NCBI GenBank assembly: GCA_030425385.1
Contig: JAUIAH010000005.1
Span: 1 to 64,000, forward strand
Direction of reading: 5' to 3'
DNA length: 64,000 nucleotides
From: Verrucomicrobiia bacterium
GTDB taxonomy: Bacteria; Verrucomicrobiota; Verrucomicrobiia; Verrucomicrobiales; DEV007
In this document: piece after piece, positions 2,164 to 62,497 of the stretch
Layout: every line of letters starts with the position of its first letter
Position numbering within the stretch: position 1 is the stretch's first letter
Notes under the pieces: generated by a model
What the model was told of the DNA's origin: nothing
What the model saw: only the letters and a program-made list of their open reading frames with translations
The model's database searches: none
Program-made: the position numbers and the translations under genes

Positions 2164-2336
2164 CTGAACATCAAGTATAGCCAGCGATCACAGTCTGACT
2201 GTAACATCTTTGTAAAACAGGCCGTCGGCAGAATACTGGGTGAAACGCCTCATACGATCCAGGGAAGTCTGAGGCACATCCCCCTTGAGTCTATCTTCTG
2301 GCGCAGCCACAAACTCACGGGCGTTGAAGCCCGACC

Positions 2337-2380
2337 TCCGGCGCGGCCATGCAAGTTCCACGCAGCATGGCCGCGCCGGA
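2337..2380. repeat. Perfect 16-bp inverted repeat (REP-like hairpin)
   Basis: The arms are 2337-2352 and 2365-2380, perfectly complementary with a 12-nt loop, GC-rich, ending TCCGG/CCGGA. A second small hairpin (CGGGC...GCCCG) lies about 10 bases to its left. The 2164-2404 gap holds nothing else. There is no T-tract, so a REP-type palindrome or short inverted-repeat element is likelier than an intrinsic terminator. Confidence 0.6.
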
Positions 2381-2404
2381 GTTTCCCGATTCTGGAAATT
2401 ATAA

Positions 2405-2707
2405 TCAAATGTTAGGCCCGTCGATGATGTCGACTGCTCCAGTCAAAAAGCAGAGCAGTCCCATGAAGATCGCCCCTACAAAGCCAAGCACCAGCAGGCT
2501 CTCGCTACGTGTCACCAGCCAATAACGCGTGTAACTCGGGAAGGGATCGGCAAGCTTGCGTCGGTAGAAGCGTCGTCGCTGGATCCAGTGAGAACCCAAC
2601 CAACCGACGACAAAGAGAACGCCACCTACGGCCCAAACGATGGCAGCGCGTTGATACGTGGTGAAGAGGGCGTCCATAGCGGTTGAATGATCGGGTGAAA
2701 CGACCAT
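2405..2707 (-). CDS. Small two-helix membrane protein
   Basis: A 100-residue protein with two hydrophobic segments (residues about 22-41 and 71-92), separated by a very basic loop containing RRRFYRRK. An AAGGTGG ribosome-binding site lies just before the ATG at 2707; an internal Met at residue 11 is a weaker alternative. It is the last gene of a leftward set with the 59-residue protein, DUF932 and SSB genes, and so probably belongs to the mobile module. The family is not recognised. Confidence 0.6.
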   Translation of the reverse strand: MVVSPDHSTAMDALFTTYQRAAIVWAVGGVLFVVGWLGSHWIQRRRFYRRKLADPFPSYTRYWLVTRSESLLVLGFVGAIFMGLLCFLTGAVDIIDGPNI

Positions 2708-2775
2708 TCAACCACCTTGGACAGCCCAGTGCAAATGATCACTAATTACAATGAAAGAGCATTGCAGCTAGAGCG

Positions 2776-2955
2776 TTAGATCAACCCTAGCAGGCTCAGC
2801 CAACTATCGGGATGATCCGGTTCGACGATGTCGCCTTCGGGCGTCTCGCAAACGCTATCGAGACTCCAGAACTCAAGCGCTTCGTCAGAAGGTCGCGGGT
2901 AAACTTCCCCGCGCCAATTAATCGTCGCTGTCTCCTGAGGTTGTGAAACCGTCAT
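2776..2955 (-). CDS. Small acidic protein of the SSB/DUF932 operon
   Basis: A 59-residue acidic protein, unrecognised. The start at 2955 is chosen because a good Shine-Dalgarno sequence (AGGAAAGGA) lies about 8 bases upstream and because the upstream in-frame residues are basic and overlap the DUF932 gene. The only notable features are a WRGEVYPRP segment and a C-terminal run of acidic residues and tryptophans. It lies 25 bases downstream of the DUF932 gene and is probably cotranscribed with it. Confidence 0.5.
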   Translation of the reverse strand: MTVSQPQETATINWRGEVYPRPSDEALEFWSLDSVCETPEGDIVEPDHPDSWLSLLGLI

Positions 2956-2980
2956 GGTCTGATCCTTTCCTGTGTGGACG

Positions 2981-3745
2981 TTAGGCAGGCAATGCCAGCG
3001 ACGAGTCCGAACCTGCCGCTTGTGCCGCACCATCCAACACGCCATGCAAGGCCTCGCTGCGTCGAGGCAACTGCATCAAACCACCCTTCAAGGTTTCGGT
3101 GAAGGCGTTGTAAAGCGACCACAGATTGCGGTCATTGAATTCCGGATGCTTCGGGGCTCGCCATTGCTCCAGCACCTTCGGCACCATCGTCGTCGTGATC
3201 GCCCGCGCATCCAGTGCTCTCACGATAAGGTCATGCGCTTCCGCATTGCCCATTTCCCGTTCCTGGTAGAGACTGGCTCGGCGTTCCGTCATGCCAACAA
3301 AGTCTGACAACTTGCCAATGGCTCGCGTCGTGACCTCCGGCAGGTCGCGCAAGATATTCGTGGTGTGGCGTCGCGCTAACACAACCTCACCAGAGAAAGA
3401 CGTGTTGTCGCAAACGAACACGCTGGAACCCATGGCCAACGCTGCGGGAAAGCGCTTGTCATGCGAATTGCGCAAACCAACGATCGTGCCCCATTGGTCG
3501 CCCTCCTGGCCATCGATGGCCACTTGCATCAATCCAAAGTAATGGGCTCCGGCACGGTTCAGGGCATGGGCCTCGTTGAGGATCTCCATGCCAGCGTCTT
3601 GCAATCCCCGGCGCACCTGTGCTGCCAAGGTGGCATGGCCCACCGGCTGCCAACGTCCCACCGCTTCCGGCGTCTTCACCCGCTCCAGTTCCTCGGGCTC
3701 GACAAGCGACCCGCCACAGTGTAAATAAAGATTATTGAGTTTCAT
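2981..3745 (-). CDS. DUF932 (plasmid/phage-type) protein
   Basis: This 254-residue protein matches the DUF932 family typical of plasmids, phages and integrative elements. The recognisable core is 'GLRNSHDKRFPAALAMGSSVFVCDN' (about residues 91-115, read as GLRNS, then F-V-C-D-N), followed by T-S-F-S-G-E. The biochemical role of the family is not established; it usually sits near recombination, SSB or conjugation genes, as here. It lies between an SSB gene and two small genes on the same strand. A purine-rich GGAAGCG segment lies upstream of the ATG. Confidence 0.8.
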   Translation of the reverse strand: MKLNNLYLHCGGSLVEPEELERVKTPEAVGRWQPVGHATLAAQVRRGLQDAGMEILNEAHALNRAGAHYFGLMQVAIDGQEGDQWGTIVGLRNSHDKRFPAALAMGSSVFVCDNTSFSGEVVLARRHTTNILRDLPEVTTRAIGKLSDFVGMTERRASLYQEREMGNAEAHDLIVRALDARAITTTMVPKVLEQWRAPKHPEFNDRNLWSLYNAFTETLKGGLMQLPRRSEALHGVLDGAAQAAGSDSSLALPA

Positions 3746-3849
3746 AATCGCTTCCGTTTTCCGACGTAGTTAGGTTTTGAGGCTCTGGCGGGAAGGGGCT
3801 GCCACCCCTCCCCGCGCTTGCCATGTGTTTTGTAACTAGCGGTCGTTGA

Positions 3850-4203
3850 TTAGGCCGCTTTCTCCTCCTTCTCGCTGGGCTTCGCAGCAAGAAACTGCCA
3901 GTCATCCACCCGCACCAGCAGGCGCGAATGCTTCTGGCCTTCGTGTTCCCACTGGTCGAGTTGCAACCGCCCTTCGATGCAAACAGGCACCTTGGTCGTG
4001 ACATGCTTCGCGAATGCCTCGCCCCGTGCTCCCCAGATATCGAGGTCAACGGCCACCAGCCGTTCCGTCGTTTCGCCATCGGCATTGCGCACCGTCTCAT
4101 TGTGGATCAAGCGAGCGCGCGTCACCGTGGTTTCACCAGCTTGGCGAGTCACTGCAGCTTTCGCGATATTGCCGGTCAATTGGATGTGGTTCTTCGTGAA
4201 CAT
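3850..4203 (-). CDS. ssb: Single-stranded DNA-binding protein (copy 1)
   Basis: A 117-residue OB-fold protein of the bacterial SSB family: it starts with the typical beta-1 'LTGNI', has 'TRARLIHNET' and 'DLDIWGARGEAFAKHV', and ends in a short charged tail without the classical acidic DDDIPF tip. It is about 55% identical by eye to the second SSB in this window (21824-22186). It is the first gene of the leftward SSB-DUF932 operon and has a GAAAGGA ribosome-binding site. Element-encoded SSBs of this kind coat transferred single strands; that role is inferred from context. Confidence 0.85.
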   Translation of the reverse strand: MFTKNHIQLTGNIAKAAVTRQAGETTVTRARLIHNETVRNADGETTERLVAVDLDIWGARGEAFAKHVTTKVPVCIEGRLQLDQWEHEGQKHSRLLVRVDDWQFLAAKPSEKEEKAA

Positions 4204-4247
4204 AGTTAGGTTCCTTTCGGGTAGGTATGTGGTTTTGTGTTTGTAAG

Positions 4248-4311
4248 TGAGAGCACCTCATACGCTCTCAAAGTGGTAATGATAGTATAGTGTTCTAATG
4301 AACAATTTCAA
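4248..4311 (-). promoter_or_regulatory. Promoter and operator-like inverted repeat of the ssb-DUF932 operon
   Basis: Read on the minus strand, TTGAAA (4306-4311) and TATACT (4284-4289) are 16 bases apart, a credible sigma-70 promoter in an AT-rich stretch. Just downstream of the predicted start is the inverted repeat TGAGAGC-N9-GCTCTCA (4248-4270), placed where a repressor would block initiation or the leader could fold. Both are predictions from sequence. Confidence 0.5.
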
Positions 4312-5318
4312 TGGAAATCGAGTGGTATACTGAAGAAAAACGCAGTTATAAATCATTGATAAACAATGCATTGCGCGCACGCGCCTCACCACCCTAACAA
4401 GCATCCCGTGAGCCGTCTGTTTCGCCAAAACAAGCCACCCGATCCGAACCACCCTCGGCCAACGAGCCGAGAGATGCGGTTGCGCCTAACAAGCAACCAA
4501 GAAGGATATAGGAAGCGGCGTCAGCCATGAGGAAAGAAAGAAGGGCGGATAGAAAAAACATTTTTTCGAGAGAAAAAAGGACGCGAAGCGAGAGGCGCGG
4601 ATCGGTGCAGGCGTCCTAAGGGAAAATGCCGCAGGGAAGGAGGGCTCCCTCTGGGATACCCATTTTCCCGTGGACGCCCAACCGTCCGTGCGGGGTGCGG
4701 AGCTTCTCCAAATCACCCACCGACCAACGGGAGGCTGACTTCAGAAAGCGCACGGTGTGGAACCAGCCGGGAGACGAGGGGTGGGAACGCGGTGGTCGTC
4801 TCCCGGCTGGTTGCATCACGGTGCAAGACCCCTCACACCAAAGGCGAAGCCCAAACCATGGCACGCGGGACGCGAGGGCTGGGTGTGGATCGTGGTCGGC
4901 TCAGGCGTCCCATGCGGTGCGGAGCTTCCAAACCTCCGGCACCGGGTGAAACCGGGTGCTGCCGATCATCGGTGGGTGGCGAGTAGTGGAGGAAGAACGG
5001 TCGTGGATGCGAGAGCCTCGAAGCTGGAAGCGGAAACCAAGCCCCCGCGCCGCTGGAACGAAGAAGCGCACGCATCCACGACGGTTCTGCGGTGGGGGCG
5101 GAGTGGAAAGTCATCCATGCATCCAAACAAAACGCGTCAGCGCATAAAGAATTGCCGCGAAGCGGATCGGGCGTTGCGGGTGTCCCGCAGAGAGGGTCGC
5201 GCCGCACGCAGTAGGCGCGCAGGGAGAGACCTCTCCCTCCAAACTGCTCTCTTCCAACCATATTCCTTCTCGTTTCTCTCAGATCCCAGAAAAACCGCCC
5301 AGAAAGTGACCATCCGAA
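4312..5318. other. Non-coding, inverted-repeat-rich region (candidate structured RNA or oriT)
   Basis: About 1 kb without a credible gene, between divergent ssb and kinase genes. Positions 4312-4600 are AT-richer, with polypurine tracts and an A6/T6 palindrome at 4552-4567. Positions 4605-5240 are packed with inverted repeats: GGCGTCC/GGACGCC (4610-4616/4672-4678) enclosing GGGAAAATG/CATTTTCCC (4620-4628/4661-4669) and a small GAGGG/CCCTC hairpin; a perfect 17-bp pair (4761-4777/4796-4812); an 18-bp pair with one mismatch (4993-5010 region/5071-5088); TGCGGG/CCCGCA (5175-5189); AGGGAGAG/CTCTCCCT (5221-5238). GGTGCGGAGCTTC occurs twice as a direct repeat (4694 and 4916). ORFs across it have no family resemblance. 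Confidence 0.6.
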
Positions 5319-5348
5319 TGTGATGTTGCCTGCAAAAGAGCGAACTAC
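5319..5348 (+). promoter_or_regulatory. 30-bp conserved motif, copy 1 (kinase gene)
   Basis: The block starts TGTGATGT and ends CGAACTAC, with CAAAA between, and ends 5 bases before the kinase ATG. It matches the blocks at 6631-6660 and 19674-19703 at 21 of 30 positions common to all three, with identical spacing. The two-box layout resembles an ECF-type -35/-10 promoter. If so, the transcript would be leaderless or nearly so. Confidence 0.7.
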
Positions 5349-5353
5349 TGACC

Positions 5354-6556
5354 ATGGAAAGCCAGTCGGAAACGGTCGGAGAAATCTCCTGTATCGCTTG
5401 TGGCACCCTCGTCTCCAATCCCAATGCCTCCGGTCTGTGTCAGCGATGCCTGCTCGCACCTCCCTCTGTCAATCAGTGGACACCCGCCGAACCACCAACC
5501 CTCGATGAAGTCGCCCAGGCTCTTCCTCGATTCCATGTCACCAAGTTGATCGGACGTGGCGCGACCGGAGCCGTCTTCGAAGCCCGTGACCGCGAACTTT
5601 CCCGAACCGTGGCGATCAAGGCCATGCGTGCACAAACGGACAACCCAGAATTCGCTGCTCGGTTTGCCCGTGAAGCCTCCGCCCTCGCCCGACTCAATCA
5701 TCCCCACGTCGTCACCATCTACGATGTCGGTGTGGTCGATGACTTGCACTACCTCGTCATGGAGCGGATGCAGCAAACGCTTGAAGACGAACTCACGGCA
5801 GGCTCCCTCACAAAAACACGTATCCTGCAGATCCTCTCCGACATCTGTGAAGGGGTGACCTGTGCGCATCTTGCGGGCGTCATCCACCGTGACCTCAAAC
5901 CGTCTAACATTCTCTTGGATGGTTCAGGACGAGCGAAGGTCAGCGACTTCGGCCTGGTCAAAGGAATCGCCGATCACGAGTTGTCAGGTGCCACCGTCAC
6001 CAAATCGGGCATGGCCGTCGGTTCCCCGTTCTACATGGCTCCCGAGCAAATCGAGAACCCGGCGCTGATCGATGCCCGTGCCGACATCTACGGACTCGGT
6101 GCCATCCTTCACAAGATGCTTACGGGTGAACCACCCAAGCCTGCGCAAAACGCCGACCGCAACTTCCGTCGCGTGCCACGAAAGCTCACACCCGTTGTTC
6201 AGCGTGCCTTGCATCCACAAGCAGACCAACGCTACAGCTCCGCAAATGAGTTGTTCCAGGCCGCCAAGGCTCAACTCGATCCCAGCCGAGCCGCGAAGCG
6301 CCGCATGCAGCTCGCCGCCCTCACTGCCGTCATCGGACTCACCACCGGGGCCTACTTCCTCGGCAGCCGTGATCGAATCCCCTATCGCAAGCATCTCTCA
6401 CAAGAAGACATCGCTGGACTTCCCCTGAAGAGCTTCGAGGCCGAAATCGACGGGGAGCTGACCCAGTGGCGGCATTGGGCCAACGATAACCCGGCCCGGC
6501 TGAGCATTCGCGGCTTCCGTGGAGCCGTCGACCGCATCCGGCTCTACACGCTGTGA
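5354..6556 (+). CDS. Zinc-ribbon Ser/Thr protein kinase with C-terminal membrane anchor
   Basis: A 400-residue Hanks-type kinase. Cys13, Cys16, Cys29 and Cys32 form an N-terminal zinc ribbon. The kinase domain (about 60-310) shows GRGATG in the P-loop, Lys89 in VAIKAM, the catalytic HRDLKPSN (Asp180), DFG (198-200) and the GSPFYMAPEQI activation-segment end, so it should be active. One transmembrane helix (about 320-338) is followed by some 60 residues ending RGFRGAVDRIRLYTL, which resembles the end of a LamG domain and may be a remnant. In PVC bacteria such kinases pair with ECF sigma factors; one is encoded at 10131. The ATG lies 5 bases after the shared 30-bp motif, with no ribosome-binding site. 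Confidence 0.9.
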   Translation: MESQSETVGEISCIACGTLVSNPNASGLCQRCLLAPPSVNQWTPAEPPTLDEVAQALPRFHVTKLIGRGATGAVFEARDRELSRTVAIKAMRAQTDNPEFAARFAREASALARLNHPHVVTIYDVGVVDDLHYLVMERMQQTLEDELTAGSLTKTRILQILSDICEGVTCAHLAGVIHRDLKPSNILLDGSGRAKVSDFGLVKGIADHELSGATVTKSGMAVGSPFYMAPEQIENPALIDARADIYGLGAILHKMLTGEPPKPAQNADRNFRRVPRKLTPVVQRALHPQADQRYSSANELFQAAKAQLDPSRAAKRRMQLAALTAVIGLTTGAYFLGSRDRIPYRKHLSQEDIAGLPLKSFEAEIDGELTQWRHWANDNPARLSIRGFRGAVDRIRLYTL

Positions 6557-6606
6557 GGCTCACCAGAGCGCCACAATAGTCGCTTGCCACCCTCACACAT
6601 TCGCTT

Positions 6607-6660
6607 TTCGCAGAACAATCGCAGAAAAAGTGTGATGTAGCCGCCGAAAAAACGAATTAC
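6607..6660 (+). promoter_or_regulatory. 30-bp conserved motif, copy 2, with upstream direct repeats (pilin-sigma operon)
   Basis: The motif occupies 6631-6660 (TGTGATGT ... CGAATTAC) and is directly preceded by two 11-bp direct repeats TCGCAGAAMAA (6608-6618 and 6619-6629). Copy 3 has a similar A-tract (CACAAAAAC) in the same place. It lies 32 bases before the pilin ATG and would drive the operon that ends in the ECF sigma gene, giving autoregulation. Promoter function is inferred from the threefold recurrence. Confidence 0.7.
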
Positions 6661-6692
6661 CCCGCGAATCCTAACCAACAACTGATTCGCGA

Positions 6693-6971
6693 ATGAATAC
6701 ACTATTCCAAAACTCCGTTACTCTCCTCGCTGCGGCGGGCGGACTCACGCAAAACCTCGGCCAAGTCGCCGGAGTGCTCAATGCCATCGGCATCCTCCTC
6801 TTCTTCGGAGGCCTGCTCATGGCCGCCATCATGTTCATGATCGGGCGTACCGAATATCTCAAATACGGCCTCGTCGGCTCAGGGGTCGGCGGGCTCGCGT
6901 GGGTCATCGTCAACACCTTCTTCCAGGCAGGCAACGGCGTCGATCCCGGCATCCAGTTGCAGAACTTCTAG
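6693..6971 (+). CDS. trbC: TrbC/VirB2-like pilin subunit
   Basis: A 92-residue protein with an N-terminal hydrophobic segment (about 7-25) and two more (about 33-51 and 57-75), ending in a short polar tail; the size and layout are typical of TrbC/VirB2 pilins. These form the conjugative pilus after membrane insertion and processing. It heads a compact operon with VirB3-like, VirB4 and sigma factor genes, which supports the call more than sequence identity does. No Shine-Dalgarno sequence is visible; CCTAACCAA lies 17 bases upstream of the ATG. Confidence 0.75.
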   Translation: MNTLFQNSVTLLAAAGGLTQNLGQVAGVLNAIGILLFFGGLLMAAIMFMIGRTEYLKYGLVGSGVGGLAWVIVNTFFQAGNGVDPGIQLQNF

Positions 6972-7006
6972 GCACGCGTCGGCCAAACCGCTCTCACACT
7001 TCGCGC

Positions 7007-7405
7007 ATGAATCGCACCGGCGACGGCCGACGTTACCACGAAGCGAACGCGGGGAGGGATTCCAAGCCTGTCATCTTCATCTTCGAAGGGAACAACGTTC
7101 TCTGGATGGTGTTAGGGTGTGGGCTTGCCCTCCTCGTGTTCCGTGTCACCCATGGGTGCTTCGCCTGGAGCCTCGGCGAATCCCTCGCGGCCAGCCTCGT
7201 CCCACTCACGATCTTCACCCTCTACGTCGTTCTGCTCAAGTCCGGCAAGCCCAAGAGCTTCGACCGCGAGTTCGGCGAATGGGGCATCATTCGCCTGCGC
7301 CAAGCCCTCGATGACCTTGGCTGGCTGCGCAACCGGCCCTACTTCGCCCCACGCAAGTCGACTGCAGCACGTCGTCCCCAATCTCAGCCTAACAAACCCT
7401 CATGA
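7007..7405 (+). CDS. VirB3/TrbD-like inner-membrane T4SS protein
   Basis: A 132-residue protein with two adjacent hydrophobic helices (about 33-50 and 57-77) after a polar N-terminus, then a basic C-terminal region containing FDREFGEWG. The length, helix pair and position between the VirB2-like pilin and the VirB4 ATPase match VirB3/TrbD, which anchors VirB4 at the membrane. The ATG at 7007 is preferred over an upstream in-frame ATG that overlaps the pilin gene. Its TGA overlaps the ATG of virB4 (ATGA), so the pair is translationally coupled. Confidence 0.7.
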   Translation: MNRTGDGRRYHEANAGRDSKPVIFIFEGNNVLWMVLGCGLALLVFRVTHGCFAWSLGESLAASLVPLTIFTLYVVLLKSGKPKSFDREFGEWGIIRLRQALDDLGWLRNRPYFAPRKSTAARRPQSQPNKPS

Positions 7406-10101
7406 GCAAACCCATCGACGGCTATCTTGTCGACGATCTCATCGTCTATCGCGGCCTGCAGAAAGGCGGTTATGTCGGGCGCGGCTTCCGCATCCATCCC
7501 CCCGATGTCGAGAACGCCGACATTGGCTGGCTCAACCACCTCGAAGACGAACTCCGCGTCCTCCTCGCCTCGCTCAAGGACACCTCGCGCATGCAGTTCC
7601 ACTGGTCGGTCGATTCCGATTACCAACGCGAACTCCTCGCCTACTACGCCAAGACCAAAGAGCTGGCCTCCAACGAATGGAGCCAGCGCCAGCGCAACGA
7701 ACGCTTTACCCGCTACTGGAAGCAAATGGAGAACCGCCAACTGCGCCGCGAACGTCTCCACCTCTATGTCACCAGCAAAATCGACGCCGGTGCCCTCCCG
7801 CGCGAAGGCGGCAAGCGCCAAATCTACGACCACGTCCTCGCCACCAACGGACGCGAACTCGACCAGTATGGAGAACTGTTCGCCCAGATCTTCCAAAGCC
7901 TCGGCGGCTCCGCACAAGCGTTAGGCGAGCAGGAGCACTTTGAAGAATTCTATCGCTACTTCAACACTTCCGCGCCCGACTGCGCCGACATCGACTACCA
8001 GGCACTCTACGATCCTGACAGAAGCCTACTCGAAAACTGTTTCAATGGGGAAGCCGCTCCCTTGTCCAAACCCGATCAGGGCTTCTACCTCGACGGCTAC
8101 TACCACGGCATCCTCGTCCTCAAGACCCTGCCCAAGACCACCTTCTCTGGCATGATCACCCAACTGACGGGTCTCGACATGTTAGACTACGCCATCACGG
8201 TCAACATCCGGGCGCTCGATGTCATGAAAGAGATCGAGAAAGAAGAAGGCGCATACGAGAAACTCCAGCATACCATTCAGCACTCGCCCAAGTTGCGCAT
8301 GCTCGCGGCCATGCAGAAGAAGGGACAAAAGATTTCCCGACTCATGTCGAACGAAGTCCTGCCCTATCAAGCGCAACTGATCGTGCGTTGCTGGGACACC
8401 GACAAAGCCGGACTCCGCGCCAAACTCGCCGCCTTGCGCAGCGCCATCTCCAAACTCAGTGGTGCCAAATACTACGACCCCGCGCTCCCCACCAGCAACC
8501 GCAACTACTTCTACGCCGCCATCCCCGGTTGGTGCTGGGACAAGTATGACGACTTCTCACACTACATCGAGGACATGAACCTCGCCAACCTGCTGCCGGT
8601 TTCCGCGACACCCACAGGCGATCTCGCCGATGCCGAAGCCCTCTACGACGGGGCCAACCGCAACCTCGTCGGGCTCAAAACCTTCGCCGGTCGTCCTGGT
8701 GCCGAAGCCCCACAACACGGCGTCATGTTCGGCATGAGCGGCGCGGGCAAATCGGTCAACATGATCGATCTCCTCACCCAAACCGAACCCTACTACGACT
8801 ACACCGTCATCGTCGAAGAGGGCCTCTCCTATGGACTCTACTCACAAACCGTCGACGACGAGACCAAGCCCATCATCATCCAGCCCAACGGCACCCTCAC
8901 CTTCAACTACCTTGACACTGGCGGACTTCCGCTCAGTCCCTTGCAGATCTCCAACGCCACCGCCCTTTGCCAACTCATGGCAGGTGTTTGTCAGGACGAA
9001 GACCGCAACCGACTCCGTGCCGCACAATTGTCAGGAGCCATTCGCCAACTCTACCGCGATGCCTACGACGACTGGAAACGTCGCCACCCGGATCAGCACC
9101 GAGGCCTCGTGCACGAAGTCGTGGCTACCAAACAATGGCTCGACCAACGCCTTCCACCCGGAGCGACGCTCTTCGATGCTCACATCGATCTCCGCGACAC
9201 CGATCCGGAAACGCGTGCTGAATTGCTCGCTAACATCGATGCTCAACACATCGACCAGGCCGAACGCGACCAAGCGCTCACTGAAGACCTGTTCCGCTTC
9301 GCCTTCGCCAAACTGTCAGCCGAGCAAATGCCCACGCACCGGCAATTGCAGGAACACCTCAGCCTCGGCACCCACGGAGCCCACGCCGAAGAACTGCGCC
9401 AACTCGCGCAGTTGTTGGAATCCTGGTGTGCCCATGGCAACTATGGCGCCCTCCTCGACGGCACGAACACCGTGAGTCTGCGCGGAAAGATGGCTCACTT
9501 CGAACTGGGTTACATCCCCGAGTCCGCGCAAGACCTCCGTGCCGTCGCAGCCTTTCTCATCACCAACCACGTGCGCAACGAAGTCATGACGCGTCGCCGC
9601 GATGTCCGCAAGCGCGTCATCCTGGAAGAACTCAGCGCCTTTCTCACCATCCCCGATGGCGACCGCATCACCCGCGAGTTCTACGAACGCATGCGCAAAT
9701 ACAACTGCTGGGTCTTCTCCGTCATCCAACAATTCAGTCGCTTTTATGATAGTCCCGTGCGCGCCAGCGTCATGGGCAACTCCCGGCTGCTCATGCTCCT
9801 CAAGCAACGCGACCGACTCGATCTCGACCGCATCTCCGAAGCCTTCCCGTTGCCGGACGTCACCCAACACGCCATCGCCAACTTCCCCGAACCCAAACAC
9901 TTCTCCAGCTTCGCCTACTACCGCGAAGCCGATGGTAAACCCGTCATCGCCAACGGCCGCAACGCCGCCTCACAAGAGATGCTCTACGCCACCGCCAGCG
10001 ACGGGGCCACCTTCGAACGCCGGGCCAAAGAAATGCAATCCGGCTCTGCTAACAAAACGCTCACTCAACGAATTGCCGAAGCCGCCGCTTCGCAAGCTTG
10101 A
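7402..10101 (+). CDS. trbE: VirB4/TrbE-family conjugation ATPase
   Basis: An 899-residue protein, usual for VirB4/TraC/TrbE ATPases that energise pilus assembly and substrate transfer. The Walker A motif is GMSGAGKS (about residues 444-451). The Walker B-like segment is RVILEEL (about 738-744), with Glu where Asp is commonest. The conserved 'EKEEGAYEKLQHTIQHS' region in the N-terminal half and 'KYNCWVFSVIQQFSRF' after Walker B fit the family. It starts 4 bases inside the VirB3-like gene and has CCTAACAAA 8 bases before the ATG. It should act on the cytoplasmic face of the inner membrane. Confidence 0.92.
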   Translation: MSKPIDGYLVDDLIVYRGLQKGGYVGRGFRIHPPDVENADIGWLNHLEDELRVLLASLKDTSRMQFHWSVDSDYQRELLAYYAKTKELASNEWSQRQRNERFTRYWKQMENRQLRRERLHLYVTSKIDAGALPREGGKRQIYDHVLATNGRELDQYGELFAQIFQSLGGSAQALGEQEHFEEFYRYFNTSAPDCADIDYQALYDPDRSLLENCFNGEAAPLSKPDQGFYLDGYYHGILVLKTLPKTTFSGMITQLTGLDMLDYAITVNIRALDVMKEIEKEEGAYEKLQHTIQHSPKLRMLAAMQKKGQKISRLMSNEVLPYQAQLIVRCWDTDKAGLRAKLAALRSAISKLSGAKYYDPALPTSNRNYFYAAIPGWCWDKYDDFSHYIEDMNLANLLPVSATPTGDLADAEALYDGANRNLVGLKTFAGRPGAEAPQHGVMFGMSGAGKSVNMIDLLTQTEPYYDYTVIVEEGLSYGLYSQTVDDETKPIIIQPNGTLTFNYLDTGGLPLSPLQISNATALCQLMAGVCQDEDRNRLRAAQLSGAIRQLYRDAYDDWKRRHPDQHRGLVHEVVATKQWLDQRLPPGATLFDAHIDLRDTDPETRAELLANIDAQHIDQAERDQALTEDLFRFAFAKLSAEQMPTHRQLQEHLSLGTHGAHAEELRQLAQLLESWCAHGNYGALLDGTNTVSLRGKMAHFELGYIPESAQDLRAVAAFLITNHVRNEVMTRRRDVRKRVILEELSAFLTIPDGDRITREFYERMRKYNCWVFSVIQQFSRFYDSPVRASVMGNSRLLMLLKQRDRLDLDRISEAFPLPDVTQHAIANFPEPKHFSSFAYYREADGKPVIANGRNAASQEMLYATASDGATFERRAKEMQSGSANKTLTQRIAEAAASQA

Positions 10102-10130
10102 ACCCCACCATTCACCCTGACAAACTCGCC

Positions 10131-10871
10131 ATGCCCAGTTCCCCCATGAAATCCTTCGATCACGCCGCGCTCTTTCCCACCACCCACTGGAGCACCGTCC
10201 GACGCGCCCAGGACGTCGCAGGCGACGATGGAACGCCTAACAAAGCCATCGACACCCTCTGCGCCACCTACTGGCGTCCCATCTGCCGCTACATCGTCTA
10301 CCTCGGGATCCCTGATCACGACGCCCGCGATCTCACCCAGGAATTCTTCCACCGGCTTGTCGTCGGTAAGAATCTATTTCTGCAAGTGCGGAAAGAAAGC
10401 GGCAAGCTCCGCACCTTCGTCTGTGTTGCCGTTCGACGCCTCGTCGCTGACGAGATCCGCAAACGCAACCGCCAGAAGCGCGGCGGCGGGATGGAGGACA
10501 CCTCGCTCGACGAACTCGATCCCCATCGCCAACCCACCGACCCCAATTCACCCGACCGCCAGTTCGACCTCCAATGGGCCCAAGCCCTCGTCGAACGTGC
10601 CCTTACCGAACTCGAAGCCGACTACCGCGCCCGAGGCAAACACGCCCTCTTCCTCGCCCTCCGCCCCTTCCTCAGCGGCGACCGCGAAACCGAATCCCAC
10701 CAGGCCATCGCCGACGAACTGCAGATCAGTGTCAATAACGTCAGCACCCAACTCCAACGCCTCCGCCAACGCTACGGCACCACCTTCCGTCAAAAAGTCG
10801 CCGAAACCGTTCCAGGCGGTGTCTCCGCCGAGGTCGATGCGGAGATCGTGTATTTGATGGGGCTAGTGTGA
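10131..10871 (+). CDS. ECF-type RNA polymerase sigma factor (kinase-associated family)
   Basis: About 246 residues. It opens with the family hallmark FPTTHWSTV, then region 2 with 'DHDARDLTQEFFHRL' and 'LRTFVCVAVRRLVADEIRKRNR', and region 4 with 'QAIADELQISVNNVSTQLQRLRQRYG' as the helix-turn-helix. Sigma factors of this type in PVC and acidobacterial genomes are usually partnered with zinc-ribbon Ser/Thr kinases such as the one at 5354. An upstream TTG at 10098 would overlap virB4; ATG 10131 is taken here and ATG 10146 is possible. It is last in the pilin operon, whose promoter region carries the 30-bp motif that it may recognise. Only 3 bases separate it from the convergent ackA gene. Confidence 0.88.
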   Translation: MPSSPMKSFDHAALFPTTHWSTVRRAQDVAGDDGTPNKAIDTLCATYWRPICRYIVYLGIPDHDARDLTQEFFHRLVVGKNLFLQVRKESGKLRTFVCVAVRRLVADEIRKRNRQKRGGGMEDTSLDELDPHRQPTDPNSPDRQFDLQWAQALVERALTELEADYRARGKHALFLALRPFLSGDRETESHQAIADELQISVNNVSTQLQRLRQRYGTTFRQKVAETVPGGVSAEVDAEIVYLMGLV

Positions 10872-10874
10872 GAC

Positions 10875-12071
10875 TCACATCGATTCGTGACTGCAGCAAA
10901 CTCGCACCGTTTTCATGGCGATCATGCGTTCTTCCTTGGCTCGGATCACCAACACTCGACCCTCTGAACGAAGACCAGAGAGGTCTCTGTCCTCACCGCA
11001 GAGCTGATTCTTGGCCTCATCCAAGTCGATGCCAAGGCAATCCAGACCCTGACAGACTTGTCTGCGCAGCGATGCTGAGTGCTCTCCAATCCCCGCAGTG
11101 AAGACCAATGCATCGATCCCACCGAGGGTCACGGCAAGTGCTCCTATTGCTGAGCGGACGTGGTCGGCGAAGAGATCGAGAGCCAGCTGGGCACGGGCGT
11201 TTCCCTCTTCGGCCGCTTGGGTGACCTTGCGGAAATCTGAAGAGATGCCTGAAACACCAGCAAGACCCGAGCGGCTGTTCAAGGCTTCGCAAAGCTCCCG
11301 AGGATCGATACGATGATGTTCAAGGAGGTGAAGCAGAATGCCAGGATCGACCGCGCCCGAGCGCGTGCCCATCATCAAGCCATCCAATGGGGTGAATCCC
11401 ATGGTGGTCGAGATCGGGCGTTCGCCGACTAACGCTGTTGCTGAGCACCCATTGCCTAAATGACAGACAATGGTGCGCAGGGTCTCGTCACCTGTCCGCC
11501 TGAGCATTTCGGTGACCCGTTTGGCACAGTAAGCGTGGCTGATTCCGTGAAATCCAAAGCGCCGTACGCCATAACATTCATACCATTCGTAAGGGACCGG
11601 GTAGACGTGGGCGCGAGCCGGCAAATCGGCGAAGAAGGCGGTGTCAAAAACCGCGACTTGGCGCACTGATGGCAGTGTGGCAAGGGCGGCTCGGATCGTT
11701 TCCAAGGCTGGTGGATTGTGCAAAGGGGCGAGTGCACTGAGCTGGGAGAGGTGTTGTAGCAATCGCCGATCAATCATCGTGGGTTGTCGAAACTCGGTGC
11801 CGCCGTGAACGACCCGATGGCCAACCGCCTGGATGGGTTGACCAATGGCCCGATCGGTGAGGAGAGTGAGAATCTCACCCACGAGGCTGGCGGGGTCACG
11901 CTGGGCAAGGACGCGTTTCCCTTTCCCCTTCTTCGAACAGTGCCAGGAGAGCTGCGCGCCTTCAGGATCGGGCCATTCCACGAGACCCCGTGCGCGCTCC
12001 TCAAGCTCGGGCCCTTCGAAGACGGCGAACTTGAGGGTGCTGGACCCGGAATTGAGGATGAGAACCCCCAT
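10875..12071 (-). CDS. ackA: Acetate kinase
   Basis: About 398 residues; converts acetyl phosphate + ADP to acetate + ATP. The family signatures are clear: LILNSGSSTLKF at the start, HRVVHGG, GFHGISHAYC and TTMGFTPLDGLMMGTRSGAVDPG (read in parts), and FTAGIGEHS near the end. The start is set at 12071 (MGVLILNSG) because the earlier in-frame ATG adds unrelated residues overlapping xfp. It begins 4 bases after the phosphoketolase stop, so the two are cotranscribed and consecutive in the pathway. It converges on the ECF sigma gene with a 3-base gap. Confidence 0.95.
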   Translation of the reverse strand: MGVLILNSGSSTLKFAVFEGPELEERARGLVEWPDPEGAQLSWHCSKKGKGKRVLAQRDPASLVGEILTLLTDRAIGQPIQAVGHRVVHGGTEFRQPTMIDRRLLQHLSQLSALAPLHNPPALETIRAALATLPSVRQVAVFDTAFFADLPARAHVYPVPYEWYECYGVRRFGFHGISHAYCAKRVTEMLRRTGDETLRTIVCHLGNGCSATALVGERPISTTMGFTPLDGLMMGTRSGAVDPGILLHLLEHHRIDPRELCEALNSRSGLAGVSGISSDFRKVTQAAEEGNARAQLALDLFADHVRSAIGALAVTLGGIDALVFTAGIGEHSASLRRQVCQGLDCLGIDLDEAKNQLCGEDRDLSGLRSEGRVLVIRAKEERMIAMKTVRVCCSHESM

Positions 12072-12075
12072 TGGT

Positions 12076-14448
12076 CTAACGCTTTGACTGCGGCCAGCTC
12101 CATTCGCGGATCTCAGGCATGTCCTGACCGTGCTCGGCAATGTAGCGTTTGTGCTCGATCAGCTTGTTACGCAGGGCTTGCTTGAGATACGCCGCCTTGG
12201 CACCAAGATTGGGCACTCGATCAATCACATCCTGGACGAGATGAAAGCGATCGAGATCATTCAGAACGACCATATCAAACGGCGTTGTGGTGGTACCTTC
12301 CTCTTTGTAACCACGGACATGAAGATTGCTGTGATTCGATCGACGATAGGCGAGACGATGAATCAGCCAGGGATATCCGTGGAATGCGAAGATGATGGGT
12401 TTGTCAGTTGTAAACATCGCATCGAAATCCCGATCAGACAGCCCGTGGGGATGTTCGTTAGGGGACTGCAACTTCATGAGGTTCACCACATTGATCACAC
12501 GAACTTTGAGTTCTGGAAGTTCACGGCGAATGATGTCCACAGCAGCGAGGGTTTCCAAAGTAGGCACGTCGCCGCAGCAAGCGAGGACGACATCAGGTTC
12601 GCCGCCCTGGTCATTGCTTGCCCATTCCCAAATGCTGATCCCGGCGGTGCAATGGGTCATGGCTTCATCAATGGTGAGCCATTGTCGAGACTGCTGTTTG
12701 CCTGCAACGATGACGTTCACATAGTTGCGACTTCGAAGGCAGTGATCGGTCACGGAAAGCAGGCAGTTGGCATCGGGTGGAAGATAGACCCGGATGATCT
12801 CGGCCTTCTTGTTCACGACGTGATCGATGAACCCCGGATCTTGGTGACTGAATCCGTTGTGGTCCTGACGCCAGACATGCGACGACAGTAAGTAGTTCAG
12901 TGAGGCAATGGGGCGCCGCCAGGGGATGTCGTTGCACACCTTCAGCCACTTGGCGTGCTGGTTGAACATCGAGTCGATGATGTGAATGAACGCTTCGTAG
13001 CAATTAAAGAACCCATGGCGCCCGGTGAGCAAGTAGCCCTCAAGCCAACCCTGACATTGGTGTTCTGAGAGCATCTCCATGACACGCCCATTTGGAGAAA
13101 TGTGGTCGTCCGTTTCTAACGTCTTTCCCACAAAGGCCCGCTCGGTCACGTCGAACACATCGCCCCAACGGTTCGAAGCGTTCTCGTCCGGGCTGAAGAC
13201 ACGAAAGTTTCGCGCTTCAAGGTTCAGTTTCATCACATCCCGAATGAACTTCCCTTGCACTCGGGTGGCTTCGGCGAAGCTACCGCCGGGATGAGGGACG
13301 TCCACGGCGTAGTCCCGATAGTCCGGCAAACGCAAGCTTTTCATGAGGAGACCACCGTTTGCATGAGGGTTGGCTCCCATCCGCCGCTCGCCGGTGGGAA
13401 CCAGCGCGGCCAGTTCCGGGCGCAGACTACCAAAGTCATCAAACAACTCCTCAGGTCGATAGCTCTTCATCCATTCTTCTAACAAGGTAACGTGATCCGG
13501 CTTCTCATGCATCTCTCCCATGGGCACCTGATGACTGCGCCAGTTGTCTTCCACCGGGTTGCCATCGACCTCGCGAGGGCAGGTCCATCCTTTCGGCGTT
13601 CGCAACACAATCATTGGCCAGCAAGGCCGAGTAGCGTCTTCCGTCGCTCTTTCCTTGATGACGCGAATGTCTTCCGCCACGCGAACCATGGTTGTCGCCA
13701 TGAGGCGGTGCATTTCCATCGGGTCGCGCCCCTCAACATAGTATGGGGAGTACCCGTAGCCGCGAAGGAGGTGATCGAGCTCTTCGTGGCTGATACGAGC
13801 GAGGACGGTGGGGTTGGCAATCTTGTAGCCGTTCAGGTGGAGGATCGGCAGCACCACACCATCATGACGCGGGTTCAGAAATTTGTTAGAATGCCAACTG
13901 GTAGCGAGGGGCCCGGTCTCTGCTTCGCCGTCCCCAATGACGCACGCCACGATCAGATCAGGATTGTCGAAAGCGGCCCCAAAGGCATGCGACAAGGCGT
14001 AGCCAAGTTCGCCGCCCTCGTGGATGCTCCCGGGGGTCTCGGGGGCGACGTGACTGGGAATACCGCCTGGGAAGCTGAATTGCTTGAACAGCCGTTTCAT
14101 CCCCGCTTCATCTTGGGTGATGTTAGGGTAATGCTCGGTGTAAGATCCTTCAAGGTAGGTGTGCGCCACCAGGCCCGGACCGCCATGACCCGGACCGGTG
14201 ATGTAGAGCATGTTGAGGTCGCGCTCATTGATGATGCGATTGAGATGGGTGTAGATGAAGTTCAGACCCGGTGTGGTCCCCCAGTGTCCAAGTAGCCTCG
14301 GCTTGATGTGCTCTTTCCGAAGAGGCTCTTTCAAGAGAGGATTGTCCAGAAGATAAATCTGCCCGACCGACAAGTAGTTCGACGCTCTCCAGTAGGCATC
14401 GAGGAGGTCGAGTTGTTTCTGTTCTTCCAATTCAAGCATGGGAAGCAC
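12076..14448 (-). CDS. xfp: Phosphoketolase (Xfp type)
   Basis: A 790-residue thiamine-diphosphate enzyme that cleaves xylulose 5-phosphate (and often fructose 6-phosphate) with phosphate to acetyl phosphate plus glyceraldehyde 3-phosphate or erythrose 4-phosphate. The diagnostic signature is [20 protein letters not shown] followed by the ThDP-binding motif [20 protein letters not shown] and SFPGGIPSH near the N-terminus and [14 protein letters not shown] near the C-terminus are also typical. Its product feeds the acetate kinase encoded 4 bases downstream, making a two-step substrate-level ATP route. Confidence 0.95.
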
Positions 14449-14516
14449 TTTGAGTTTCGGCCAAATCTGGAAATATCATTTACGCGCTAGCTATACTAAG
14501 CTCGGCATATCACGAT

Positions 14517-15455: not shown

Positions 15456-15499
15456 GCTTAGCTGTTTCTTAGTTTGAGATTGGGGTAATGCGATACGGG

Positions 15500-18205: not shown

Positions 18206-18208
18206 TGG

Positions 18209-19285: not shown

Positions 19286-19403
19286 GAAAGACGAAACACA
19301 TGCTTCGCGTTGCATTCTATGCAGTTCTTGGTCTGAAGTGTCCGCAGCTTGGCGGCTTAGCGATCTAGTCGATGACATTGCCACAGCCGTCTTTGCTGGC
19401 TTA

Positions 19404-19568
19404 GCGCGTAAAGCTGCGAACGTCAGGCTCACTGACTAAACGATCATCGATGGTGCGCGACGATGCGGGCCTCGCGCATACGAAGCCGAGGGCATCGGCG
19501 CCTGCCGCAAGAGCTAGCTGTGCTTCAGCCAGTGATGCGATACCACATATTTTGATCTGAGTCCGCAT
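19404..19568 (-). pseudogene. trpF 5' fragment (phosphoribosylanthranilate isomerase)
   Basis: Fifty-five codons starting ATG at 19568 encode the unmistakable N-terminus of PRA isomerase (IKICGIASLAEAQLALAAGADALGFV) and then run out after a few unrelated residues. The intact enzyme is about 200 residues, so about three quarters is missing. It lies between the metabolic operon and the second half of the conjugation module, on the strand of the former, and looks like a rearrangement scar. Confidence 0.7.
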
Positions 19569-19673
19569 GAAGTCGAGTCTAGCGGTAGCACACTTGCGAG
19601 GTTCAAGCGACTTCACAGGTACTTTCTCAATACTCCCCTCCCTTGTGATCCGGCGGAGGACTCTCACAAAAAC

Positions 19674-19703
19674 TGTGATGTTGGCGACAAAATGACGAAT
19701 TAC
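19674..19703 (+). promoter_or_regulatory. 30-bp conserved motif, copy 3 (lipoprotein-trb operon)
   Basis: Begins TGTGATGT and ends CGAATTAC, 7 bases before the ATG of the lipoprotein gene, with CACAAAAAC directly upstream. It shares 21 of 30 positions with both other copies. It is on the plus strand, like the downstream secretion genes, and separate from the leftward metabolic operon. Confidence 0.7.
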
Positions 19704-19710
19704 CCTGGCG

Positions 19711-20157
19711 ATGAAAGCATTTGCCAGGAAAGCCGTCGGGTTGCCCGTGTTGATCGCGGCAACGAGCCTTGCATCCACTAGTTGTAGTAGCGTCCCGCAC
19801 GCGGCGACCAATGCGGTTGCTGCCAGCACTGGAGCCCTCCTTGGCCATGAGTTCACGGATGGTGAACCGGAAGGGGCCCTTCTCGGTGCGGCGGCAGGCG
19901 TGGTCACTGGGGAAGTGCTGCATCACGTCCAACAGAGCAAGGAAGCCAAGGCTTTTACGACCGGTTACAACAAGGGCCGGAGCGATGAAGTGAAGCGGCT
20001 CTACTGGGTGCAGAAGAATCTGCATCGTGGGGACGAGTTCAGCGACGGGGCCGATCTCTTTCCGGCGTACTACGAAATGCCCGTGCCGGAGCACGTGAGT
20101 TCGGACGGCACGATCATCGAGCCTCACACAGAAGTCATCGAAGTCCTGGAGCCATGA
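19711..20157 (+). CDS. Glycine-zipper lipoprotein of the T4SS module
   Basis: A 148-residue protein with a lipoprotein signal: a basic start, a hydrophobic run and a lipobox LASTSC (lipidated Cys about residue 25). A small-residue segment follows, with ALLGAAAGVVTGEVL, a glycine-zipper type membrane-active helix, then a charged C-terminal half with KGRSDEVKRLYWVQK. The family is not recognised. The position at the head of the TrbJ/TrbL half suggests an outer-membrane lipoprotein role such as VirB7-like assembly or entry exclusion; this is inference. The start abuts the 30-bp motif, with no ribosome-binding site. Confidence 0.65.
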   Translation: MKAFARKAVGLPVLIAATSLASTSCSSVPHAATNAVAASTGALLGHEFTDGEPEGALLGAAAGVVTGEVLHHVQQSKEAKAFTTGYNKGRSDEVKRLYWVQKNLHRGDEFSDGADLFPAYYEMPVPEHVSSDGTIIEPHTEVIEVLEP

Positions 20158-20525
20158 GAGCGCGATTCACCCATGACGGCGCGCTGGATCATCATGCGCA
20201 CAACGAACACGAACTCTTTCGCCGTGCTGACGAGGCACTCGAACGGCAAAGGCGTTTGGATCACTCGGCAATGGCAAGCCAAGTGCCTGCCCTCGCCAAA
20301 CCACTAACGCTATCTCCGTTGGCAAAAAGGCCAACTGCGATGAGCCCTGCCGCTCCAACCGCACCGTCAGGTGCGACGTTTCCCGGCATGCAAACGATGT
20401 CGCACGAGCAAATAGCCCTCACCCATCCACACGCGGGCGCATTATCCACTCCCCTCCCGTGGCCATCACGTGAATCGGAGACCGCTGCACCAAGCATCGG
20501 CATCACCTCAAGGAGGAAGCGTTAG
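20154..20525 (+). CDS. Small Pro/Ala-rich protein, unknown function
   Basis: A 123-residue unrecognised protein. Its ATG overlaps the lipoprotein stop by 4 bases (ATGA) and its TAG falls just after the AGGAGG of the next gene, an arrangement that favours a real coupled gene. The N-terminal third is charged with His/Arg/Glu heptad-like spacing (HNEHELFRRADEALERQRR); the rest is low-complexity Pro/Ala/Ser/Thr, likely disordered. No membrane segment is seen. Confidence 0.45.
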   Translation: MRARFTHDGALDHHAHNEHELFRRADEALERQRRLDHSAMASQVPALAKPLTLSPLAKRPTAMSPAAPTAPSGATFPGMQTMSHEQIALTHPHAGALSTPLPWPSRESETAAPSIGITSRRKR

Positions 20526-20529
20526 AGTC

Positions 20530-20895
20530 ATGAACGCCATCAGACGCATCGACACACCCGAGGCAGCCTATCAATTGCGCCGAGCCCTGGCAGAACATAC
20601 AGGCGGCAATGTCACCGCCGTCACCATGAAGCCGGTGCAAACCCTGGAAGACGGCATCATGAAACGGCACCTCGCCGCGACGGTTGATGGGGAACGCAAG
20701 CGCTTCGTGGCGGTCGCCGCGAACGGCAAGGTCGGCATCTACGACGCCCGCTTCGATCTGCAGCCCAAACAGATTCACCAATTGCTCGCCAAGGTTGAAT
20801 CGCACCAGCTCAAGACTCCTACCAAAGCCAACGGCTGGCCCGTGCGCTCACCCACAACGGCATCCCTTTCCAACGCCCATATCCGAAGGCGCTGA
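20530..20895 (+). CDS. Hypothetical protein of the T4SS module
   Basis: A 121-residue protein without recognised domains. The start MNAIRRIDT at 20530 is chosen because AGGAGG lies 14 bases upstream; an earlier in-frame ATG at 20470 would overlap the previous gene. The body is an alternating strand/helix sequence (ERKRFVAVAANGKVGIYDARFDL), compatible with a small alpha/beta fold, with a basic C-terminal tail. It lies 34 bases before the TrbJ-like gene on the same strand. Confidence 0.55.
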   Translation: MNAIRRIDTPEAAYQLRRALAEHTGGNVTAVTMKPVQTLEDGIMKRHLAATVDGERKRFVAVAANGKVGIYDARFDLQPKQIHQLLAKVESHQLKTPTKANGWPVRSPTTASLSNAHIRRR

Positions 20896-20929
20896 ATCAC
20901 CCAAACCTAACCAACCACGATACCGAACC

Positions 20930-21778
20930 ATGAAAACCACCCTATTCACGATCCTTATCGCCTCCTGCGCCCTCGCTTCGCTGCCAACAAAGAGTCACGC
21001 CACGGGCATCCCCGTGGTCGATGCGGCCCACATCGCCGCGAACCGAGTCTCACACTCCATCGACTATGTCCAACAGGTCTTACACGAAGCCAATCAGCAA
21101 ACGCAGATTGCCAAGCAGGTTGAGCAGATCACCCAGCTCTATGAACAGATCGAGCAGCTCTACACCCAGATTGAGCAGATGGACAATTACCTCGAACGCT
21201 TCGGCGATCCCAAAGAGATCCTCGATCTCGCGGGATTTGATGGGCTCATCAACGATCTCGGCCAAGCCACCAGCGGGCTCGACATCGAAGCCATCCTACC
21301 TGATCTCACTGGCGAGGAACTCTTCGAATTCGACGGCAACGGGCTCTTTCAACCCATCGAGCCTGACATTGTCGTTGGCGGCGATGAAGTGGAACGCGAT
21401 GCCGAACGCTACAAGCCCGAGGACGCGACTCGCGAAACCATTGCCCAGTATCGGGAGAAGAAAGCCGAAGTCATCGAACGACGCGATGCTCTTCGAGACA
21501 ACATCTCGCAAACCGTCAACGCCATCCAATCCGCCGAGACTGACAGTGAAGTCAAGAAGTTGACTGGTGTTTTGATAGGTCAACAAACTGAACTGCAAGC
21601 CATCGATCAGGAACTGGAGATTGCCAAAGGCGACGCCGAAGCCCGGGCCATCGAGAACGAGAACCAGCGGATCGCCGAAGCGAAAGCCCGTGCCGAAGAA
21701 ACAGTGCGCCGCTTCGAAGCCGCCAACCGCGCCGATGTGCAGACCTACCGACTCGATCAATCACCCTATGGCTGGTGA
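20930..21778 (+). CDS. trbJ: TrbJ/VirB5-like conjugal transfer protein
   Basis: A 282-residue exported protein with a clear signal peptide (residues 1 to about 24, ending SHA). The periplasmic N-terminal segment is Gln-rich and coiled (QQTQIAKQVEQITQLYEQIE), the usual hallmark of TrbJ/VirB5-type minor pilus proteins. A second long coiled coil (about 170-270) follows. TrbJ/VirB5 proteins sit at the pilus tip and contact recipients. CCTAACCAA lies 18 bases before the ATG and no Shine-Dalgarno sequence is seen. The gene order TrbJ, SSB, TrbL supports the call. Confidence 0.75.
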   Translation: MKTTLFTILIASCALASLPTKSHATGIPVVDAAHIAANRVSHSIDYVQQVLHEANQQTQIAKQVEQITQLYEQIEQLYTQIEQMDNYLERFGDPKEILDLAGFDGLINDLGQATSGLDIEAILPDLTGEELFEFDGNGLFQPIEPDIVVGGDEVERDAERYKPEDATRETIAQYREKKAEVIERRDALRDNISQTVNAIQSAETDSEVKKLTGVLIGQQTELQAIDQELEIAKGDAEARAIENENQRIAEAKARAEETVRRFEAANRADVQTYRLDQSPYGW

Positions 21779-21823
21779 TCGCATTCACACTCTCCCATCG
21801 ACCCTAACAAGCCACCTGAAACT

Positions 21824-22186
21824 ATGTTCCAACGCAACCGCATCGAACTCACCGGCAACATCACCAAGCCACCCAAGACGGCCACCGCTGGCGACACCAG
21901 CGTCACGCGGGCCAGGCTGATTCACAACGAAACCGTGCAGCGTTCCAACGGCGAAACCTTCGAACGGCTCACTGCCGTCGAGATTCAAATCTGGGGCAAA
22001 TCAGGCGAAGCATTCGTCGAACACGTCACCAGCAAGAAGCCCATCTACATCGAAGGATCGTTGCAACTCGCGGAGTGGGAAAAGGACGGCGAGCGCCTCT
22101 TCCACCACTACATCCGCGTCAACCACTGGCAATTCCTCCTCCCCAAAGCAAACGCGGAATTGGAAGCGGCAGACCAAGCTGCCTAA
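21824..22186 (+). CDS. ssb: Single-stranded DNA-binding protein (copy 2)
   Basis: A 120-residue SSB-family OB-fold protein starting MFQRNRIELTGNI, with TRARLIHNETVQ and EIQIWGKSGEAF in the same places as the first SSB. Like that copy, it lacks the acidic C-terminal peptide that recruits host repair proteins. It lies inside the TrbJ-TrbL operon, 45 bases after trbJ and 18 before trbL. CCTAACAAGC is 15 bases upstream of its ATG. Placement within the transfer operon suggests it coats transferred single-stranded DNA. Confidence 0.85.
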   Translation: MFQRNRIELTGNITKPPKTATAGDTSVTRARLIHNETVQRSNGETFERLTAVEIQIWGKSGEAFVEHVTSKKPIYIEGSLQLAEWEKDGERLFHHYIRVNHWQFLLPKANAELEAADQAA

Positions 22187-22204
22187 CCAAACGGCGACCG
22201 CCCC

Positions 22205-23341
22205 ATGGACGATTTCGACATTCTCTTCCCCACGTTCAAAGCCAACGTGGCCGAACTGCACGAAGGCCTTCTCGTCTTCGCCTACATCACCTTGGTGCTC
22301 GGGCTGCTGCTCGCCGCCTATAGGGGAATGTTCGGCAGTTTCAGCGAAATCGTCAGAGCTTTGGTGGCGGTCGCCGTCCTCAGTATCGCCCTCGGTTACA
22401 TCGACGACTGGGTCTTCGATGCGGGCAACCTCGTGACCGAGTTCGTCCTCGAAGGACTCGACACCGATCCGCGCGAAACGCACACGCGCTTCGGGGAACT
22501 GCTCACCAACCCGGTCGATGAAGGCGATGACCAATCGTGGCTCGACCGAATCTTCGATGCCCAAACCGCCATCGCCGAACTGTTAGCCAAAGGCCTCATC
22601 CTCATCGCGGCCAAGATCGCCTGGGTGATCGTTTGGCTGGCCTATTTCATTCACAAAGCCCTCGTCTATTTCGGCGTTGCCCTCGCGCCCATCTTCCTCC
22701 CCATGCTCATGCTCAACGCCACGCGTGGCATTGCCGTGCGTTACATCATGGGCCTCCTCTCCCTCATCATGTGGCCACTCGGCTGGGCCGTGGCCAACCT
22801 CATGACCCAATCCCTCATGGACAACGCCGCCGATCGAACTCTGTATGAATTCGGTGGTGTATTAGGCCAAGCCTCCTATGCCCCGCAGATGCTCATCTTC
22901 ATGCTCATCGCCTCCATATGGCTCGTGGCCAGCACCATCGGCGCGCCCATCATCATGAGCCGCATCCTCACCAGCGGAGCCCAGATCGGCAGCGCCCTGT
23001 TAGGCGGCTTCGCCGGAAGCGCGGTCGGTGCTGGAAGCGGCGCTGTCGGAGGTGCCATGCTCGGCGGCAGCGTTGGCGGCCCGGCCGGAGCCGTCGCCGG
23101 AGCTGCCATGGGCGGAGCCGGAGGCTTCACCAGCGGAGCTATCGGCGGCCCCAGTTCCGGGATGGCCACAGGTGCGGGCATGGGGGCATTCTCCATGGTA
23201 ACCGGCGGTGGCGCGAGCGCAGGTGAAGAGGCGAGCAGTGGAAGCGACGGAAGCTCAACCGGAGGCAGCAAGAACTCAGAAGGTTCCAAGACTCCGAGCA
23301 ACTACAACGCTGAGGCTGCTGCTCTCGCGGCGAAAAGCTAA
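22205..23341 (+). CDS. trbL: TrbL/VirB6-like polytopic T4SS protein
   Basis: A 378-residue inner-membrane protein with several hydrophobic helices: about 22-42, 45-62, 127-170, 180-200 and 225-255. The C-terminal 120 residues are a long glycine/alanine/serine-rich tract (GGFAGSAVGAGSGAVGGAML and similar), as in many TrbL proteins. TrbL/VirB6 forms part of the inner-membrane channel. It is the last recognisable gene of the conjugation module here. A modest hairpin lies 28 bases after its stop, and decayed sequence and an IS follow. Confidence 0.8.
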   Translation: MDDFDILFPTFKANVAELHEGLLVFAYITLVLGLLLAAYRGMFGSFSEIVRALVAVAVLSIALGYIDDWVFDAGNLVTEFVLEGLDTDPRETHTRFGELLTNPVDEGDDQSWLDRIFDAQTAIAELLAKGLILIAAKIAWVIVWLAYFIHKALVYFGVALAPIFLPMLMLNATRGIAVRYIMGLLSLIMWPLGWAVANLMTQSLMDNAADRTLYEFGGVLGQASYAPQMLIFMLIASIWLVASTIGAPIIMSRILTSGAQIGSALLGGFAGSAVGAGSGAVGGAMLGGSVGGPAGAVAGAAMGGAGGFTSGAIGGPSSGMATGAGMGAFSMVTGGGASAGEEASSGSDGSSTGGSKNSEGSKTPSNYNAEAAALAAKS

Positions 23342-62489: not shown

Positions 62490-62497
62490 TGGAAGTG

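Follow-up and report, generated by a model that had tools for sequence, protein, structure and literature searches.

Introduction

Known ECF sigma factors that are switched by kinases have lost the acidic DAED motif of region sigma2.2 (PMC8103513; PMC13147305). In Xanthomonas citri, the transmembrane Hanks-type kinase PknS and the ECF43 sigma factor EcfK, from which the DxxD of sigma2.2 has been lost, are encoded together and control the type VI secretion system (T6SS) of the host; EcfK is phosphorylated directly by PknS, which also modifies the linker between sigma2 and sigma4 (PMC13147305). A second kinase-ECF pair, PknT-EcfP of Vibrio parahaemolyticus, governs polymyxin resistance, with the DAED of EcfP replaced by STTA (PMC8103513). 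The groups ECF43, ECF59 and former ECF60 are defined by the exchange of DAED/DxxD for uncharged residues with a phospho-acceptor and by a Hanks-type kinase gene nearby.

The locus described here lies in a window of 64,000 nucleotides (positions 1–64000 of contig C48) of a Verrucomicrobiia genome, G000, of 8.0 Mb in 74 contigs. It resembles PknS-EcfK in that a transmembrane Hanks kinase and an ECF sigma factor are encoded together and in having a contact-dependent secretion machine as candidate target. It differs in that this target is the type IV secretion system (T4SS) of a mobile element, with relaxase, partition and recombination genes. VirB2-B10, a coupling protein and a TrwC relaxase are shared with VirB/D4-type elements carrying a MobF (TrwC) relaxase, from which it is set apart by a divergent VirB4, by an additional AAA+ protein and lipoprotein, and by transfer operons that contain sigma genes. 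Kinase-ECF control of a secretion system is therefore already known from the T6SS, and what would be new is its application to a conjugative element. The open-licence literature yielded no paper on T4SS regulation in Verrucomicrobia and no description of such control for a T4SS, in agreement with an earlier note on this DNA.

Results

Organization of the locus

Between positions 5354 and 10871 the genes follow the order membrane Ser/Thr kinase, virB2, virB3, virB4 and FPTTHWS-type ECF sigma, all on the forward strand. The Hanks-type kinase (5354..6556; Pkinase PF00069, E=2e-49) has a CxxC/CxxC N-terminus, a catalytic domain and a membrane segment. The VirB2-like pilin (6693..6971) and the VirB3-like protein (7007..7405) gave no family-model match in Pfam or NCBIfam and were assigned from position, membrane pattern and conservation across related loci. 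The VirB4 ATPase (7402..10101) matched PF19044 (TraG P-loop, 1e-8) and the TraC/VirB4 NCBIfam models TIGR00929 and TIGR02746 (5e-26 and 2e-23), while the last gene of the virB2-3-4 operon, encoding the FPTTHWS-type sigma factor S1 (10098..10871), was identified from PF07638 (Sigma70_ECF, 4.5e-6), TIGR02937 (5e-14) and its position in a tree; its start codon is uncertain, with TTG at 10098 and an ATG further 3', near 10131, as the candidates. The bracketing of virB2-virB3-virB4 by kinase and sigma, as proposed in the earlier note, was thus confirmed, with Pfam/NCBIfam support for kinase, VirB4 and sigma.

A further operon on the same strand encodes a glycine-zipper lipoprotein (19711..20157; weak Pfam Gly-zipper match, place conserved in related T4SS), a conserved element protein of 123 aa (20154..20525), a VirB5-like protein of uncertain start (20684..21778; TIGR02791, E=2e-4), a single-strand binding protein (21824..22186; PF00436) and a VirB6/TrbL-like protein (22205..23341; PF04610, E=5e-4). 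On the reverse strand, a DUF932 protein (2981..3745; PF06067) and a second single-strand binding protein (3850..4203; PF00436; present also in contigs C39, C27 and C6) form the divergent SSB-DUF932 module of the element.

The conjugative element and its copies

The element spans roughly 65 kb and comprises a MobF relaxase, a coupling protein, VirB2-10, ParA and a recombinase. Profile matches were obtained for all of the VirB/D4-type hallmarks VirB4, VirB6, VirB10 and coupling protein. There are three VirB4 copies in G000, on C48 (the window), C39 (98%) and C27 (81%). Comparison of C48 with C39 delimited the element segments to 2294-10871 and 19665-23232 of the window and, beyond it, C48:71339-81741, separated by an unrelated block at about 10.9–19.6 kb, a DDE transposase gene (23688-25505) and unrelated genes. 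The block between the two T4SS operons (10875-19640) is mostly on the opposite strand and carries acetate kinase-like, phosphoketolase-like, universal stress-like and cation-ATPase-like genes (named by eye); the transposase gene lies just 3' of virB6, and in contig C409 of a relative, G064, virB4 sequence directly borders a related transposase sequence.

The fuller copy on C39 includes VirB6, VirB8-10, the AAA+ protein, a second sigma factor (S2) and a TrwB/TraG-type coupling protein and, at 118–126 kb, a TrwC relaxase (PF08751, E=2e-61), ParA genes and a weakly matching tyrosine recombinase (125051-126409, E=5e-5); a serine-type recombinase was matched on C6. We infer that the relaxase end of C39 belongs to the same integrated unit, with about 8 kb of other genes intervening. 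No relaxase was found on the examined part of C48. Judged from sequence, the window copy is broken and unlikely to transfer itself, and the C39 copy looks more complete. A search of PLSDB plasmids returned distant VirB4 proteins only (27–32%) and no match to the sigma factor.

Intact homologues of the kinase (559–606 aa) align with CxxC...CxxC before the kinase domain, followed by a membrane segment and a C-terminal domain. With 400 aa, against 559 aa in the C39 sister copy, the kinase of the window is a shortened form; an in-frame loss of 477 bp at a few bases of microhomology has removed 159 residues of the C-terminal outer domain. A structural identification of this domain was attempted, but the AlphaFold model was poor (pLDDT 46) and showed just a strand-rich end. 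On C27 an intact kinase gene (577 aa) adjoins SSB-DUF932 at 70.2 kb; virB2 is still preceded by what remains of a kinase gene, interrupted by stops. The approximately 37 kb between them (C27:72000-108600) hold mainly metal-efflux-like genes (named by eye), a similar set being found 3' of the sigma gene in G064:C260. A DNA methyltransferase-like gene (N6_Mtase, Eco57I; C27:113805-117104) immediately follows S1 in the C27 element. On C39 a second kinase gene (61470-63161), with no motif in front, is convergent to the S2-coupling-protein operon.

A promoter-like motif confined to the element

The upstream regions of the kinase and virB2 have TGTGATGT-N14-CGAANTAC in common, and the core motif was defined as TGTGATGTT-N13-CGAAYTAC. 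In the window it occurs on the forward strand at 5319..5348, as TGTGATGT-N14-CGAACTAC, 5 nt 5' of the kinase ATG; at 6631..6660, 32 nt 5' of the virB2 ATG, the virB2 of G064 also having a motif; and at 19674..19703, 7 nt 5' of the lipoprotein ATG. The candidate promoter shared by kinase and transfer genes in the earlier note is found again at a further operon and is element-specific. The exact core was found 15 times in G000, each time at element genes, with no occurrence in 383 other genomes of the class and none for the reversed control. When up to one mismatch was allowed in 75 genomes of the family, more than two sites were present only in G000 (16), G064 (14) and G065 (5). The 31 distinct sites from G000, G064, G065 and G068 gave the refined form TGTGATGTT-N7-ARA-N-RRCGAAYTAC, in which positions outside the search pattern were also conserved (T9 in 28/31, A17 in 28/31 and A19 in 29/31). 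The refined motif had no match in IMG/VR.

Genes and operons 3' of the motif are the kinase, virB2-3-4-S1, lipoprotein-virB5-virB6 and virB8-9-10-AAA-S2-coupling protein, and it also precedes the TrwC relaxase, ParA operons and an HTH gene with a serine recombinase. A long ORF began within 60 nt at 19 of 36 sites (31% expected by chance), a count that is not decisive alone; in G064 some sites lie at the end of a contig or are followed by ORFs that are short or uncertain. The decisive evidence is instead the narrow range of spacings and which genes lie downstream. Distances to the start codon cluster at 5–8 nt, and at 29–33 nt for virB2. Since the motif often ends 5–8 nt before the start codon, its two blocks would take the -35 and -10 positions if the transcript is leaderless. 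The -35 block is without the AAC usual for ECF promoters (PMC8103513). A common -35-like TGTGA before all FPTTHWS sigma genes of G000 was also considered and was not enriched.

The C27 element carries a variant, CGTGAT...CGAATTA(A/G), before the kinase (70167), virB2 (109313), the lipoprotein (118186) and ParA (61019), and its S1 shares 44% identity with that of the window. The site before the coupling-protein operon on C8, which is probably the continuation of C27, S2 being apparently divided between the two contig ends, starts with CGTGAT and ends with CGAATTCA. That one cell contains two promoter variants, each paired with its own element, points to an element-encoded recogniser; a weaker alternative is that the sites within the element share descent.

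Distribution in relatives

The order virB4 then S1 was found in the three G000 copies and in two loci of G064 (genus g11), with the kinase 5' of virB2 in C39 and, directly so, in G064:C42; synteny is kept between the genera and the sigma has diverged to about 50%. In genus g24 of family f4, where VirB4 is about 50% identical, a divergent kinase and an FPTTHWS-type sigma unrelated to S1 precede virB2 in 17 of 18 readable loci, counting two at contig edges and one with the pair displaced and inverted; the locus without the pair is that of G134. Conserved TGTGAC-N3-T-rich blocks were seen before the T4SS-linked sigma of g24 (L130, L132-L134, L137), and in opposite orientation before virB2. Pair and motif were absent from T4SS with VirB4 identity of 46% or less and from genus g31 (48%). 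The co-location survey suggested in the earlier note thus bore out the linkage for the nearest T4SS loci, which have the sigma wherever their flank can be read, and not for these more distant lineages.

In the sigma tree, S1 clusters with S2 (99/97), and the g24 sigmas make up a separate clade (100/100). Sigma and T4SS thus became associated on two or more occasions, unless the sigma was exchanged for another. This separation gives no support to a single ancestral T4SS sigma from which those of both families descend.

Discussion

The locus probably belongs to a conjugative element with its own transcription switch, comprising a motif recognised by an element ECF sigma, feedback and a kinase input. 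The recogniser would be S1, encoded 3' of virB4, or the paralogue S2 from the virB8-10 operon, or both, the two candidates being indistinguishable here. As both lie inside motif-bearing operons, the sigma, once active, would raise its own level and that of all transfer genes, and this positive feedback may amount to commitment to transfer. With less confidence, the membrane kinase, with its zinc-ribbon-like N-terminus, may provide the input by activating the sigma or a partner, presumably by a means other than the known DAED-replacement switch; kinase control is the weakest part of the mechanism.

Direct phosphorylation of S1 by the kinase, switching S1 on as in PknS-EcfK and PknT-EcfP, is a possibility to which we give somewhat less than even weight. 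It would fit a kinase gene that adjoins the T4SS operon and is itself under the motif, the 26 of 34 FPTTHWS-type sigmas of G000 that lie within 3 kb of a kinase, the recurrence of a sigma-kinase pair beside virB2 in another family and the precedent of EcfK. A Hanks-type kinase gene is indeed near S1, about 3.5 kb away across virB2-3-4, but the acidic sigma2.2 residues given up by ECF43, ECF59 and former ECF60 are kept (DARD or DAED in S1, EAED, SAED or DAED in S2, DAED in the g24 sigmas). Any action of the kinase on these sigmas would thus take a different route, possibly through the sigma2-sigma4 linker. In addition, S1 and the g24 sigmas do not group in sigma trees, the window kinase is without most of its outer domain and the kinase could have another target. 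Of the control scheme put forward in the earlier note, sigma control of the T4SS is well supported, by the element-specific motif before transfer operons, by the gene order conserved in a second genus and by a sigma-kinase-T4SS linkage that occurs independently in another family; the kinase route via sigma phosphorylation is not, given the retained acidic motif and the truncated window kinase.

The motif might instead be an operator for an element-encoded DNA-binding regulator, with the sigma acting elsewhere. In G000, G064 and G065 the first gene of the motif-bearing ParA operon encodes a conserved, uncharacterised protein of 117–133 aa that might bind DNA, and the G065 assembly (70% complete) has its five motif sites in the absence of S1, S2 and VirB4. 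We regard this as unlikely, however, as the motif is asymmetric, is directed into the gene wherever one can be identified and is spaced from start codons as -35 and -10 elements would be, and the 117-aa protein has no DNA-binding family match. The G065 element possibly relies on the sigma of another element; its relaxase, ParA and excisionase-like genes on C582 and C693 (L208, L209) bear the motif. Still less probable, and already disfavoured, is that the pair is a passenger that regulates other genes, one of many such pairs having landed near a T4SS. The 34 sigmas of this type in 8 Mb and the T4SS lineages that lack the pair would agree with this, but synteny is kept between genera despite the sigma divergence, the promoter motif is confined to the element and a second, independent linkage exists in g24, where one checked genome has only five such sigmas. 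On the sequence evidence, the most likely reading remains that an element-encoded sigma drives transfer, its own expression included.

A broader view, which we put forward tentatively at close to even weight, is that the element has an ECF sigma regulon of its own, which covers transfer, partition and excision and is gated by a sensor kinase, with distinct sigma-promoter pairs in coexisting elements and at least two origins in Verrucomicrobiota. If this is true, a sigma encoded by the element and subject to positive feedback decides conjugation in Verrucomicrobiota, and the 30-bp promoter can be used directly to search for such elements, to map their regulons and to ask which signal triggers transfer. 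Kinase-ECF signalling would then extend from the T6SS to the T4SS, two T4SS lineages having recruited it separately.
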